Source: Roseivivax isoporae LMG 25204 (lineage in GTDB: Bacteria; Pseudomonadota; Alphaproteobacteria; Rhodobacterales; Rhodobacteraceae). From it: a DNA stretch of 64,000 nt. Position numbers and translations under genes: made by a program. The stretch covers positions 1 through 64,000 of the forward strand of contig NZ_JAME01000015.1 of assembly GCF_000521865.1 (NCBI RefSeq), in the 5' to 3' direction. This document shows positions 9,544 to 42,568 of this stretch, one piece after another (position 1 is the first letter of the stretch; every line of letters starts with the position of its first letter). The notes under the pieces were generated by a model, which saw nothing but the letters and a program-made list of their open reading frames with translations, had not been told where the DNA came from and made no database searches.

Positions 9544-10266
9544 CTACTCGGTGTCGGTGCCGCGCAGCGCCAGCACCGCGACGATGCCGAGCGCCGCGAG
9601 TCCCGCCACCGCGGCGTTGAAGGGGGCGGCGTTCGCCACGATGACCGCGACCAGCGCCCAGATCACCGTGATCCCGTATTCCGGCGCCCGGTGCAGGCGG
9701 TACTGCACGGTCAGCGCGATGGCGACCGCGAGCGCCAGCGCCGCCAGCGCCGCCGGGGTCTCGGACATCACGCCGTAGCCGCCCAGCATCAGGCCGACCG
9801 ACACGCAGGCCGCCGCGGTCAGCCAGCCCGCGTAGATCGCGACGGGCGAAAGCTGCCACCAGCGGTCGGTGTCGCCGATCCGCCAGAGCGCGGCCAGCGC
9901 GGTCATGAGCATCCCCCAGATCAGGAGCGTCGCCGCCGGCACCGAGGTCTGCGCCACCGGCAGCCAGATCGACCCGAGCGCCAGCGACAGGAACAGCCAG
10001 GGCCGCGCCGGGTCCCAGTCCTCGTCGGTCGCGCGCATGAGGAGGCCGAACGCGGTGCCCGCGATCAGCCAGACGTAGATGAGCCCCCAGATGGCGAAGG
10101 CGTAACCCGCCGGCTGCACCGCGGGGTCGTCCTGCGGCACCGGGAACTGGCCCGGGTCGAAGCCGTTGAAGCCCTGGTTGAACAGCGGCGACAGCGCGAA
10201 GACCAGCGCCGAAACCAGCACCAGAAGCGCCCGCATCCTCTGCATCGTCTCGCGTCCCAGCTTCAT
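9544..10266 (-). CDS. TspO/MBR-like tryptophan-rich membrane protein
   Basis: The 240-residue integral membrane protein has about seven hydrophobic segments and the TspO-like [23 protein letters not shown] and [17 protein letters not shown] stretches. Family members bind tetrapyrroles and cholesterol-like ligands. It is longer than typical TspO (about 160 residues), so it belongs to the distant TspO-related group. GGAAGGAG is only one base before the ATG at 10266; the Met at 10245 is an alternative. It ends 11 bases from the convergent anmK stop. Confidence 0.6.
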
Positions 10267-37844: not shown

Positions 37845-39247
37845 GCGGTCTTACTGAGGCTCGCGTAGAGGTCGGCATAGGCGCGGGCCGACACGTCCCA
37901 GCCCACCGGATGTGCCATAGCGTTGCGCATCATCTTTTGCCAGAGCGCGCGGTCCGCCCAGAGGGTGGTCAGCTTGACCAGCGCCTGCGTCAGCGTGTCG
38001 GCGTTGACCGGGTAGAACTGCAGGCCGGTGGCCGCGCCGGCCGCGAGACCCGCGGGGCTCGCGTTGATGACGGTGTCGGCGAGGCCTCCGGTCAGCGCCA
38101 CGAGCGGCAGCGTGCCGTAGCGCAGCCCGTAGAGCTGCGTCAGGCCGCAGGGCTCGAACCGCGAGGGCACGAGGATCGCGTCGCCGCCGGCGAGCATGCG
38201 CCGCGACAGCGCCTCGTTGTAGCCGATGCGCACGGAGACGTGCGGGTGCGCGGCCGCAAGGTCGCGGTAGGCCGACTCGAGCCGCGTGTCGCCCGAGCCC
38301 AGCAGTGCCAGCTGGCCGCCGCCGTCGAGCAGTGCCGGCAGCGCGTCGAGCAGCATGTCGAGCCCCTTCTGCTCGGTCAGGCGCGAGATGACGACGCAGA
38401 GCGGCCCCTCGCGCTCGGGCAGGCCGAACTCGTCGCGGAGCGCGCGGGTGTGCTTGGCCTTGCCGCGGGCGTTGCGGTAGGGCGGCGTCCACGCCTCCTC
38501 GTCGATGCCGTTCAGGATGCCGCAGAGCTTCGACTGCCGGCTGCGCAGCAGCCCGTCGAGGCCCATGCCGAAATCCTGGGTCAGAAGCTCGCTGGCATAG
38601 GTCGGGCTGACGGTGTTGATGGCGTCGGCGTAGACGAGCCCGGCCTTCAGCGCGCTGATCTGGCCCCAGTACTCGAAACCTTCGGGAGTGAACCCCGTGC
38701 GCGGCAGGCGCAGGACATCCATGAGCGAGGCGGGCGCGAGGCCCTGGAAGGCGACGTTGTGGATGGTGACGAGCGTGGCGACGCGGGCGGTCGCGTCCAT
38801 CTCGGACAGGTAGACCGGCGCGAGCCCCGCCTGCCAGTCGTGCAGGTGCAGCACGTCGGGCCGCCAGTCGTCGGTGCCTTCGGCCGCGAGGCGTGCCGCG
38901 GTCATCGACAGCGCGGCGAAGCGCTGCGGGTTGTCCGGCCAGTCGCGGCCGTCGGGACCCGCGTAGATCGTGCCGTCGCGGTCGTAGAGATGCGGCGCGT
39001 CGAGCGCGTAGAGCACGGTGTCGCCGAGCCGCCCCTCGACGAGCCGCGCGGGCCCGCCGAAGAGCGATCCGAGGTCGCGCGCGCGGCCGCCGTCCGCCTC
39101 CGCCATGACCGCGGGATAGCCGGGCAAGAGCGTGCGCATCTCAACGCCGTGCCGTGCCAGCGCGCCGGGCAGCGCGCCCGCGACATCGGCGAGGCCCCCG
39201 GTCTTGACCAGGGGCACGCATTCCGACGCGACCGAGAGGACCTTCAT
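37841..39247 (-). CDS. glgA: Glycogen synthase (ADP-glucose)
   Basis: The 468-residue GT5 enzyme extends alpha-1,4-glucan from ADP-glucose. It opens with VLSVASECVPLVKTGGLADVAG, which carries the KTGGL nucleotide-site motif, and has VPSRFEPCGLTQLYGLRYGTLPL in the C-terminal half. The ATG at 39247 shares one base with the glgC stop (TGATG), so synthesis of the two is coupled. Confidence 0.96.
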   Translation of the reverse strand: MKVLSVASECVPLVKTGGLADVAGALPGALARHGVEMRTLLPGYPAVMAEADGGRARDLGSLFGGPARLVEGRLGDTVLYALDAPHLYDRDGTIYAGPDGRDWPDNPQRFAALSMTAARLAAEGTDDWRPDVLHLHDWQAGLAPVYLSEMDATARVATLVTIHNVAFQGLAPASLMDVLRLPRTGFTPEGFEYWGQISALKAGLVYADAINTVSPTYASELLTQDFGMGLDGLLRSRQSKLCGILNGIDEEAWTPPYRNARGKAKHTRALRDEFGLPEREGPLCVVISRLTEQKGLDMLLDALPALLDGGGQLALLGSGDTRLESAYRDLAAAHPHVSVRIGYNEALSRRMLAGGDAILVPSRFEPCGLTQLYGLRYGTLPLVALTGGLADTVINASPAGLAAGAATGLQFYPVNADTLTQALVKLTTLWADRALWQKMMRNAMAHPVGWDVSARAYADLYASLSKTA

Positions 39248-40512
39248 CAAAGCGCCTCCGCCCGCTTGTCGAGCATCGCCTGCGTGATGAGCGTCACGCC
39301 GCCGTCCGAGACGCGGAACCACTTCGCGTCCTCCTCCGGGTCCTCGCCCACGACGAGCCCCTCGGGGATGTGCACGCCGCGGTCGATGACCACGTCCTTG
39401 AGCCGCGCGTGCCGCGACACGTAGACATAGGGCAGCACCACCGCACGCTCGAGCGAGGAGAACGAGTTGGTGTGCACCTGCGTGAAGAGCAGCGATTCCC
39501 GGATCTCTGTGCCCGAGACGATGCAGCCGCCCGACACCAGCGAGGACACGGCCGATCCGCGGCGGTTTTCCTCGTCGTGGATGAACTTTGCGGGCGGCAC
39601 GCTTTCCGAATAGGTCCAGATCGGCCAGTCGCGGTCCCAGAGGTCGAGCTCGGGCGCAAAGTTGGTGAGGTCGATGTTCGCCTTCCAGAACGCGTCCACC
39701 GTGCCGACGTCGCGCCAGTAAGCCGTCGCCTCGGTGGAGCTGCGCACGCAGGACTTCTCGAACCGGTGCGCCTGCGCCTTTCCGTTCTTGACGATGTCGG
39801 GGATCAGGTCGTTGCCGAAATCGTGGCTCGACGACGGGTCGTCCGCATCGCGCTGCAGCAGGTCGCGCAGGAAATCCCAGCGGAACACGTAGATACCCAT
39901 CGAGGCGAGCGTCACGTCCGGGTTGTCGGGCGTGCCCGGGGGGTCCTTGGGCTTTTCGAGGAACGAGGTGATCACGTCCTTCTCGTCGATGGCCATGACG
40001 CCGAAGGCCGACGCCTCGGCGCGCGGCACGGTCAGGCACCCGATCGTCACGTCTGCACCCGAGTCGACGTGGTGCTCGATCATCTTCTCGTAGTCCATCT
40101 TGTAGATGTGGTCGCCGGCGAGGATGAGCACGTAGTCGACGCCGTAGCTGTCGATGATGTCGATGTTCTGCGCCACGGCATCCGCCGTCCCGCGGTACCA
40201 CATCGCCTCGTCGGTGCGCTGCGACGCGGGCAGGATGTCGAGGAACTCGTTGCGCTCGGCGCGGAAGAAGTTCCAGCCGCGCTGGCAGTGGCGGATCAGG
40301 CTGTGCGCCTTGTACTGGGTGGCGATCGCCATCTTGCGGATGCCCGAATTCAGGGCATTCGACAGCGCGAAGTCGATGATCCGGGTCTTGCCGCCGAAAT
40401 ACACGGCCGGCTTCACCCGTCGGTCGGTCAGTTCGCGCAGGCGCGAGCCGCGACCGCCGGCCAGCACGAAGGCCATGGACCGGCGCGCGAGGCGCTTCTT
40501 GTTCGGGTTCAT
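39247..40512 (-). CDS. glgC: Glucose-1-phosphate adenylyltransferase
   Basis: The 421-residue ADP-glucose pyrophosphorylase makes the first committed precursor of glycogen. Visible are the nucleotide loop [22 protein letters not shown], the [17 protein letters not shown] region, WYRGTADAV and the glucose-1-phosphate-site [10 protein letters not shown] left-handed beta-helix follows at the C-terminus. GGGAGGA precedes the ATG at 40512. It is the first gene of the operon; no glgB or glgP follows within the window. Confidence 0.97.
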
Positions 40513-40649: not shown

Positions 40650-40674
40650 GGAACTTTCGATGCCTCCGTTCGTT
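40650..40674 (+). promoter_or_regulatory. EcfG-type (general stress) promoter motif
   Basis: GGAAC (40650-40654) and CGTT (40671-40674) are separated by exactly 16 bases, 37 bases before the ATG of the DUF883-like gene. This matches the consensus GGAAC-N16/17-CGTT of alphaproteobacterial EcfG general-stress sigma factors. Confidence 0.5.
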
Positions 40675-40710
40675 ACAATCGACCATAAAGGTGATGCCAA
40701 GGGGGAAGAC

Positions 40711-41061
40711 ATGGCCGAGGCACGAGTGAAGGACGCTGATGTCCAGGGTGCGGAGACACGCATGAAACGGGATACCGAGGCGCTGGCCGCCCAGATCGAC
40801 ACGCTCCGCAATGACCTGTCCGAGGTCACGAGCCTGCTCACGGAGATGGGCCTGCGCCGCCGCGACGAGACCGTCGCCGCCGCGAAGGAGCGCGTGGACG
40901 CCCTGCGCCGCGAAGGCAGCGAGCGGCTGCACGATGCGCAGCGCCGTGCCACCGACGCGCAGGACCAGGTGCTGGAATCGATCCGCCGCCAGCCCGGCAC
41001 GGCGATGGGCATCGCCGTCGCGGTCGGCTTCCTCGCGGGACTGCTGACAAGCCGTCGCTGA
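40711..41061 (+). CDS. DUF883/ElaB-YqjD-like membrane-anchored protein
   Basis: The 116-residue protein is highly charged and helical (about residues 15-90, with [24 protein letters not shown]). It ends in the short hydrophobic anchor [23 protein letters not shown], the hallmark of the ElaB/YgaM/YqjD family. In enterobacteria these are stationary-phase, ribosome-associated inner membrane proteins. GGGGGAAG precedes the ATG. It stands 1 base from the next gene and behind a stress-type promoter motif. Confidence 0.8.
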
Positions 41062-41062
41062 C

Positions 41063-41431
41063 ATGGCGCTTCTCGCGCAGTACGAGGCGATCCTGCGCCG
41101 CAAGGCGCAGGCCGCGGCGTTTTCGCTGACCGGGATCGTGTTCCTGGGGCTCGGCACCGTGTTTCTGACGGCCGCGCTCTGGATGGTCCTCGCGGAACTC
41201 CGCGACCCGAAATTCGCGGCACAGGTGATCGGCGCGGGCTTCGTCGCGCTGGGCTTCCTGTTCCTCGGCATCGGCCGGATCATCGGCCGGCGACGGGTCG
41301 TGGTGGCGCCGGTGACGACGGGGGCGGCCGTGGCGCTGCCCATCGCGCAGATCGTGGAGGGCTTCGTCCTCGGGATGAACGCCGGGCGGCGCACGCGCCG
41401 CGGACGCGGGTCCGACCGGGACCGCGATTGA
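41063..41431 (+). CDS. Holin-X-like small membrane protein
   Basis: The 122-residue protein has two close membrane helices (about residues 20-45 and 55-75) and a basic, Arg/Gly/Asp-rich tail. This resembles the phage holin superfamily III/YqjE proteins found next to YqjD-like genes. That YqjD-YqjE pairing, and the 1-base gap, support the call. The function is unknown. A 7-base-pair hairpin follows at 41456-41473. Confidence 0.6.
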
Positions 41432-41497
41432 AATCCGGCACTGCCGGGCTTCACAACCCGGCGGGGGCCGGGTCTCTAGAAACGGGGGCATTCCACG

Positions 41498-42568
41498 ATG
41501 GCGACATCGTCTGCGGGGTTACGCACCCCGCTTATCATCATCGCGACCGTCCTGTGCGGCGCGGTGCTCTGGATCGCACGCGACGTCGCGGCGCCCATCA
41601 CCCTTGCGATCGTGATCGGGGTGATCGCGGCGCCACTGCTCGACCTTTTCAAGCGGATCCGCATCCCGGAATCGTACGGGGCGCTGGTGATCCTGCTTGC
41701 GACGCTATTGGGCTTCGCGGCTCTGATCCTCGCACTCGAACCGCTGGTCTGGCGCATCGTCGACCAGATGCCCAGCATCCGGCTCGAGCTGCGGTCGCTC
41801 GTCTACGAGTTCCAGGGCGTGATCCGTGGCCTCGACGACATGAACGAGCAGATGAAGGAGGCGCTGGGCGCCGCCAAGGAGGCCTCCGAGGAGGAGGCCG
41901 AGGGCGGGGCGCAACTTCCGACCGTGACCGACGCGCTCTTCGTGGCGCCGATCATCATCGGGCAAATGCTGATCTTCGCGGGCACCTTCTACTTCTTCCT
42001 CGTCAACCGCAGCCGCGTCTACACGGCGCTGGCCGGCCGGCTCGCCCAGAAGGGCGAGGGCGCGGTGCTGCAGGCACGGTTCCGCCGTGCGGAATACCTC
42101 GTCTCGCGCTACTTCGCGACCATCTCGATCATCAACTTCGCGCTCGGCACCGCGCTCGCGGGCTATCTGGGCCTCATCGGCCTGCCGCTGCCGGTGGTCT
42201 GGGGCGTCGGCGCCGCGCTGATGAACTACGTGCTCTACGTCGGCCCGGCCTGCGTCGCCGCCGGACTGCTCTTGGCCGGCATCATCAACTTCGAGGGGCT
42301 GATGGTGGTCGCACCCATGGCGGGCTATCTCTGCATCAACATGATCGAGGCGCAGTTCGTGACCCCTTCGCTCGTGGGCAAGCACGTGTCGATCAACCCG
42401 CTCGCGGTGTTCATCGCGCTGGTCTTCGGGCTCTGGTTCTGGGGACCGATCGGCGGCATCGTGTCGATCCCGATCATGGTGATCGTGATGGCGCTGCTGG
42501 ACGATCCGGCGAGCCGCGCGGCGGATGTCCCGCCGCCCACGCCCTCGCCGCGCTCGGCGCGCGCCTGA
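41498..42568 (+). CDS. AI-2E family transporter (putative permease)
   Basis: The 356-residue protein has about eight membrane helices in the AI-2E/YdgG pattern: two at the N-terminus (ITLAIVIGVIAAPLLDLFKR), a soluble amphipathic middle region (residues 95-150), then a block ending PLAVFIALVFGLWFWGPIGGIVSIPIM, the family signature. Members export small molecules or ions; the AI-2 label is historical. It stands 66 bases after the holin-like gene, so it may or may not share that transcript. Confidence 0.85.
   Translation: MATSSAGLRTPLIIIATVLCGAVLWIARDVAAPITLAIVIGVIAAPLLDLFKRIRIPESYGALVILLATLLGFAALILALEPLVWRIVDQMPSIRLELRSLVYEFQGVIRGLDDMNEQMKEALGAAKEASEEEAEGGAQLPTVTDALFVAPIIIGQMLIFAGTFYFFLVNRSRVYTALAGRLAQKGEGAVLQARFRRAEYLVSRYFATISIINFALGTALAGYLGLIGLPLPVVWGVGAALMNYVLYVGPACVAAGLLLAGIINFEGLMVVAPMAGYLCINMIEAQFVTPSLVGKHVSINPLAVFIALVFGLWFWGPIGGIVSIPIMVIVMALLDDPASRAADVPPPTPSPRSARA

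Follow-up and report, generated by a model that had tools for sequence, protein, structure and literature searches.

A conserved EcfG-type promoter motif ahead of a DUF883 and YqjE-like membrane gene pair in Roseivivax isoporae

Results

Promoter Motif and Start Codon

An exact EcfG-type motif, GGAAC-N16-CGTT, was identified at positions 40650–40674 on the plus strand of a 64,000-nucleotide stretch of the Roseivivax isoporae LMG 25204 genome (hereafter, the window), ahead of a gene pair encoding a DUF883_C (YqjD/ElaB-type) protein and a YqjE-like membrane protein. Judged from sequence comparison, the site is very probably a working EcfG promoter for this pair, and its best reading is that of a predicted conserved EcfG target, often located directly behind phyR. 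The evidence computed here comprises the site itself, the sigma system encoded in the genome, and their conservation, co-occurrence, and linkage. The promoter type is ordinary; the interesting part is the breadth of the pair's link with the PhyR-NepR-EcfG system.

The −35 element GGAAC occupies 40650–40654 and the −10 element CGTT occupies 40671–40674 of the plus strand with a spacer of 16 nt, and both are kept in relatives. The site hence has the boxes and spacing of an EcfG-dependent promoter (GGAAC, a 16–17-nt spacer, and CGTT or GGTT). In the accessible text of earlier studies, GGAAC-N16-CGTT is reported as the general stress response (GSR) motif of Sphingopyxis granuli (PMC7083833), GGAAC-N16-17-C/GGTT was applied for Rubellimicrobium thermophilum (PMC12148442), and the motif of Sphingomonas melonis is written GGAAC-N17-20-GTT (PMC6599016). 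The start codon that fits the site is ATG 40711, which lies 36 nt past the −10 box and behind AGGGGGAAGA at 40700–40709. A longer reading frame starting at 40660 was rejected, because it would place the −10 box within the coding region. The first-pass annotation, which had proposed an exact site ahead of a YqjD/YqjE-like pair, was correct as to both the motif and its position. The number of motifs in the 64-kb window was not significant, as 2 matches to GGAAC-N15-18-CGTT were found against 1.38 expected and 40 of 100 shuffles reached 2. The second match, at 10143, lies opposite a predicted gene and was set aside. The significance of the site is therefore derived from its conservation upstream of the same gene and not from its count in the window.

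Gene Pair and Its Neighbors

The first gene (40711–41061, plus strand) encodes a 116-residue protein composed of a charged body and a C-terminal, hydrophobic glycine-zipper tail, for which hydropathy gave a single helix. This protein scored 28.8 bits against the C-terminal glycine-zipper model DUF883_C (Pfam PF19029, cut-off 27), which also matches E. coli and 24 of the 24 members of our DUF883 alignment, consisting of the window protein and 23 relatives with the site in place (six relatives were left out). The N-terminal domain PF05957 was not recognized in it (13.4 bits, cut-off 25.4); at E 0.01 this model matched 1 of the 24 aligned members, leaving 23 without a recognized N-terminal domain. 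The predicted product is a DUF883_C protein that resembles YqjD and is not YqjD itself.

The second gene (41063–41431, plus strand), separated from the first by one base, encodes a 122-residue protein with two main hydrophobic stretches on hydropathy, plus a third that is weaker. Its match to PF07332 (Phage_holin_3_6) was below the cut-off (E 0.0046; 17.4 bits, cut-off 28.4), and it is absent from the genome-wide PF07332 matches at E 0.001. When it was aligned with the membrane ORFs following the DUF883 gene in 19 of 22 relatives, the aligned partners all matched PF07332 at E 0.01 (20/20, best 9.7e-12). The predicted product is named YqjE-like only. The earlier assignment of a YqjD/YqjE-like pair is supported in this form, as DUF883_C plus YqjE-like, by PF19029 and by the PF07332 matches of the aligned partners. 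A membrane ORF was located directly 3′ of the DUF883 gene in 22 of 26 relatives under a lenient rule preferring hydrophobic ORFs, and tblastn (E 0.001) detected a YqjE-like partner in 11 of 29 family loci.

We infer that the pair is co-transcribed as an operon. A possible third gene of the unit, which follows after a 66-nt gap, encodes an AI-2E family transporter (41498–42568, plus strand; PF01594, 1.3e-36), and in 5 of the 29 family loci such a transporter gene also occurs close to DUF883. A GC-rich inverted repeat (ACCCGGC/GCCGGGT) is present between the YqjE-like and transporter genes at 41431–41497, and it could limit read-through into the latter. The opposite strand carries glgC at 39247–40512, which scored 680.8 bits against the glucose-1-phosphate adenylyltransferase model.

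General Stress System in the Genome

The genome to which the window belongs (4.90 Mb, 203 contigs, 99.85% complete) contains one NepR (59.1 bits, cut-off 25.7). A GSR locus on contig 36 has nepR and the gene of a 185-residue ECF factor on one strand, with phyR facing away. This ECF factor (EcfG) scored 327.5 bits against NF009198 (cut-off 270), and PhyR scored 352.8 bits against NF006623 (cut-off 240). The title of NF009198 is only "RNA polymerase sigma factor"; we read it as an EcfG-type model from the position of its match beside nepR and phyR. The kinase adjoining ecfG has HisKA_2 and HWE domains and resembles PhyK below the model cut-off (199 bits against 750). The search for phyR, nepR, and ecfG that the first-pass annotation had suggested thus recovered all three, on a contig other than that of the window. 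Absence of ecfG had been named there as an objection to the promoter, and this objection fails because the genome encodes nepR, ecfG, phyR, and a PhyK-like kinase. The DUF883 copy of the window adjoins glgC and not the GSR locus, which sits on another contig; this was counted against our reading.

The gap between nepR and phyR holds a GGAAC-N16-CGTT site ahead of phyR (2659–2683 of the GSR locus) and a GGAAC-N17-AGTT site ahead of nepR on the other strand (2690 down to 2665). These two overlapping, opposed EcfG-type sites form a near-palindrome at 2659–2690. Two further genes with partial resemblance to PhyR were also observed. One of them (contig 13, minus strand, locus L055, 355–933) encodes a receiver-like N-terminus and a PhyR_sigma2-like C-terminus, both below the cut-off and in the reverse of the PhyR domain order; the gene is preceded, at 50 nt, by an exact EcfG-type site. 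The other (contig 9, minus strand, locus L027, 1157–1453) encodes a 99-residue protein that matches PhyR_sigma2 weakly, and an exact EcfG-type site is located 47 nt upstream.

Conservation of the Site in Rhodobacteraceae

A DUF883 protein was found in 33 of 120 genomes of the family, and upstream regions were scanned in 29 of the 32 such genomes other than R. isoporae, weaker matches being given no locus. An exact site was present within 300 bp upstream in 20 of the 29 relatives, against a mean of 0.07 and a largest value of 2 in 100 dinucleotide shuffles. Allowing up to one mismatch over the same 300 bp gave 25 of 29, against 2.17 expected from dinucleotide shuffles. Approximately 200 permuted motifs gave at most 1 exact match each across the 29 relatives. 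The exact sites were also specific in spacer length: 13 had a spacer of 16 nt and 7 had 17 nt, none was found for 15 and 18 nt, and the other spacers tried gave 0 or 1.

The site was in place just ahead of the gene in 23 relatives, exactly in 19 and with one mismatch in 4. The first in-frame ATG, chosen by a mechanical rule, was located 31–41 nt past the −10 box in 18 of these 23, and in the other five at 1, 9, 10, 24, and 49 nt. Hand-chosen starts, picked after the sites were known and including the R. isoporae gene, fell at 31–41 nt in 21 of 24. Six of the 29 family loci (L099, L100, L101, L102, L105, and L109) had no site in place; the exact site of L100 is 293 nt from the match and was not counted. 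Among relatives, the site was thus kept exactly in front of this gene in 20 cases, and four of the six genomes without a site in place have NepR. On the opposite strand of the upstream regions (L081–L109), exact sites were found in 7 of 29 loci and sites with up to one mismatch in 16 of 29, which may reflect divergent stress genes.

Co-Occurrence and Linkage with NepR and PhyR

The PhyR-NepR-EcfG system had been described beforehand as patchy in Rhodobacteraceae, and this was borne out, with NepR matches in 53 of the 120 genomes, which by our tally represent one genome per genus. NepR was present in 30 of the 33 family genomes with DUF883 versus 23 of the 87 without it (Fisher 1.2e-10, a value that overstates independence because the genomes are related). 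The three genomes with DUF883 and no NepR (G074, G076, and G080) gave partial PhyR-model matches among those listed, none over the cut-off, and the loci of two NepR-lacking genomes (L105 and L102) had no site within one mismatch. In 18 of the 30 family genomes with both, no more than 10 kb separated DUF883 from nepR, in G037 via a second copy. Furthermore, phyR was seen in 10 of the 29 family loci (each locus reaching about 1.5 kb from the match), always upstream of DUF883 and codirectional with it. These co-occurrence and linkage counts were read by eye from match lists.

A profile of the 24 DUF883 members was then searched against 190 genomes of the class Alphaproteobacteria. A DUF883 relative was detected in 47 and NepR in 30 of them, with both in 25; NepR was present in 25 of the 47 DUF883-positive genomes versus 5 of the 143 others (Fisher 9e-14). 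Ten of the 25 genomes having both, including G055 of the same family, encode DUF883 and nepR within about 2 kb of each other. Among 28 class loci, an exact site occurred within 300 bp in 6 of 15 NepR-positive and 2 of 13 called NepR-negative, the latter being an unreliable set; with up to one mismatch, the figures were 10 of 15 and 5 of 13, not all at the usual distance. The exact site of L152, a NepR-positive locus, is 284 nt off. In Algimonas arctica (L140), an exact site with a 17-nt spacer was located no more than 300 bp from the DUF883 match. Outside the family, a lack of NepR was rejected as a reliable negative control, because genomes called NepR-negative carry related components: a PhyR match over the cut-off in G199, a full-length PhyR match below it in G293 (214.6 bits, cut-off 240), and, in G262, an ECF-type match located roughly 2 kb from the DUF883 gene.

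Motif Sites across the Genome

The R. isoporae genome contains 82 GGAAC-N16/17-CGTT sites, and the reversed pattern occurs 26 times. With wrong spacers (N19/20) between these boxes, 57 sites were found, and 20 for the reversed pattern; many of the 82 real-spacer sites are therefore chance. Positions were compared for the first 30 of the 82 real and the first 30 of the 57 wrong-spacer sites: 10 of 30 distinct real-spacer sites versus 0 of 30 control sites were outside predicted genes with a start 5–120 nt downstream. The genome scan proposed in the first-pass annotation hence revealed enrichment just ahead of genes in these samples. Of 80 classified sites (82 in total), 42 were outside genes and 29 passed the start-distance filter, as assigned by a crude gene finder that wrongly extended glgC across the DUF883 gene, thus classing the window site as intragenic, and that may err on other starts.

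Pfam was scanned with 28 of the 29 filter-passing proteins, all except PhyR. Those fitting a stress regulon in our judgement were a trehalose-phosphate synthase family protein, Pmp3, PRC-barrel, DJ-1/PfpI, DUF2383, OmpA with a YMGG zipper, PLDc_N, a zinc alcohol dehydrogenase, an alpha/beta hydrolase, and a formate/nitrite transporter. No obvious stress fit was seen for TetR, cytochrome c, acyltransferase, OMP decarboxylase, DUF533, and DUF3616, and eight of the 28 had no match at E 0.001. Separately, a second YqjE-family gene (85.3 bits to PF07332) was observed on contig 14 (locus L212, 1775–4874) downstream of a gene resembling manganese catalase (334.5 bits, cut-off 350) that is itself preceded, at about 130 nt, by GGAAC-N16-TGTT. 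The gene after this second YqjE-family gene has a weak DUF883-like match, and the cluster is possibly a second stress operon.

Discussion

In the mechanism proposed for the window site, stress would activate the HWE/HisKA2 kinase, leading to phosphorylation of PhyR, which would then pull NepR off EcfG. The EcfG-RNA polymerase would initiate a few nucleotides past CGTT, giving a leader of approximately 30 nt, and the predicted transcript would be translated into both proteins of the pair. The DUF883 protein would be anchored in the inner membrane via its C-terminal glycine-zipper tail with the charged part in the cytoplasm, and YqjE would be an integral membrane partner. The likeliest role would be that, under stress or when growth has ceased, the pair adjusts the membrane surface, perhaps through ribosome retention at the membrane as by E. 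coli YqjD. This biochemical role is the weakest step of the explanation, and the ribosome role is not simply transferable because the N-terminal DUF883 domain was unrecognized in 23 of 24 members.

A different role under the same EcfG-dependent promoter is that the pair protects the envelope rather than parks ribosomes, to which we assign an even chance. The YqjD/YqjE-like genes PA3040-3042 of Pseudomonas are AlgU-controlled and induced by envelope stress (PMC11302039), PhyR of Rhodobacter sphaeroides is reported to matter in membrane/UV stress and not in oxidative, heat, or salt stress (PMC5830050), and the unrecognized N-terminal domain also speaks for such a role. E. coli YqjD, ElaB, and YgaM, however, bring ribosomes to the membrane (PMC10746276), and a DUF883 protein was found among ribosomal proteins in Paracoccus PHB granules (PMC11150862), though the latter is a weak point.

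As for regulation, a genuine promoter recognized chiefly by another ECF sigma factor of this genome, for example the EcfG-like paralogue encoded on contig 13 (locus L041, 1798–2427), is improbable. The genome has ten PhyR_sigma2-type matches, PhyR and EcfG among them, and this paralogue, which scored 162.5 bits against NF009198 (327.5 for EcfG, cut-off 270), has an exact site about 318 nt upstream. However, across the family the presence of the site follows that of NepR, and DUF883 is often encoded next to phyR, which points to the NepR-controlled factor. A chance motif, with the genes expressed from another promoter, is scarcely credible: although the window count is not above chance, this reading is contradicted by conservation upstream of DUF883 in relatives, far beyond the shuffles and with spacers of 16 or 17 nt only.

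If the site is an EcfG promoter, it would supply a concrete conserved output for the GSR of Rhodobacteraceae, whose distribution is patchy and which has received little study, and would tie an obscure membrane pair to the PhyR-NepR-EcfG system. We moderately favor the view that DUF883-YqjE, co-inherited with the alphaproteobacterial GSR, is one of its core outputs, often built into the ecfG-nepR-phyR locus, and that the pair, separately placed under RpoS, AlgU, and EcfG, represents a membrane-surface module serving as a shared end point of stress programmes. In a limited search of openly accessible main texts, neither its link to PhyR-NepR-EcfG nor its control by three stress sigma factors was found stated, and two studies of EcfG regulons (PMC7083833 and PMC6599016) mention YqjD, ElaB, or a holin nowhere in their main text. 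Either membrane protection or ribosome parking by the pair could offer a partial explanation for the membrane/UV-specific effect of the R. sphaeroides phyR mutant (PMC5830050).

Comparison with Known Systems

Among EcfG/RpoE2/SigT promoters of Alphaproteobacteria, the window motif is identical to the GSR motif given for Sphingopyxis (PMC7083833), whereas the window site comes from Rhodobacteraceae, a family with few regulon data. The E. coli yqjCDEK operon similarly has adjacent yqjD and yqjE genes under a general-stress sigma factor, and both PF19029 and PF07332 match E. coli. According to the accessible text of PMC10746276, the 5′ ends of yqjC and yqjD are RpoS-dependent, YqjD is a tail-anchored protein, and overexpression of YqjD or YqjE halts growth. 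The present pair differs in its proposed dependence on EcfG instead of RpoS and in the lack of a recognized N-terminal DUF883 domain. Pseudomonas PA3040-3042 also has closely spaced YqjD-like and YqjE-like genes, in that order, controlled by a stress sigma factor, in this case AlgU and not EcfG. These genes are induced by phage and in stationary phase as well; their deletion or overexpression is reported to leave growth unchanged, and PA3042 to be found in few other species (PMC11302039). With RpoS in E. coli, AlgU in Pseudomonas, and, as predicted, EcfG here, different stress sigma factors would reach the same pair, so that the question of why these three control the same two genes becomes testable.
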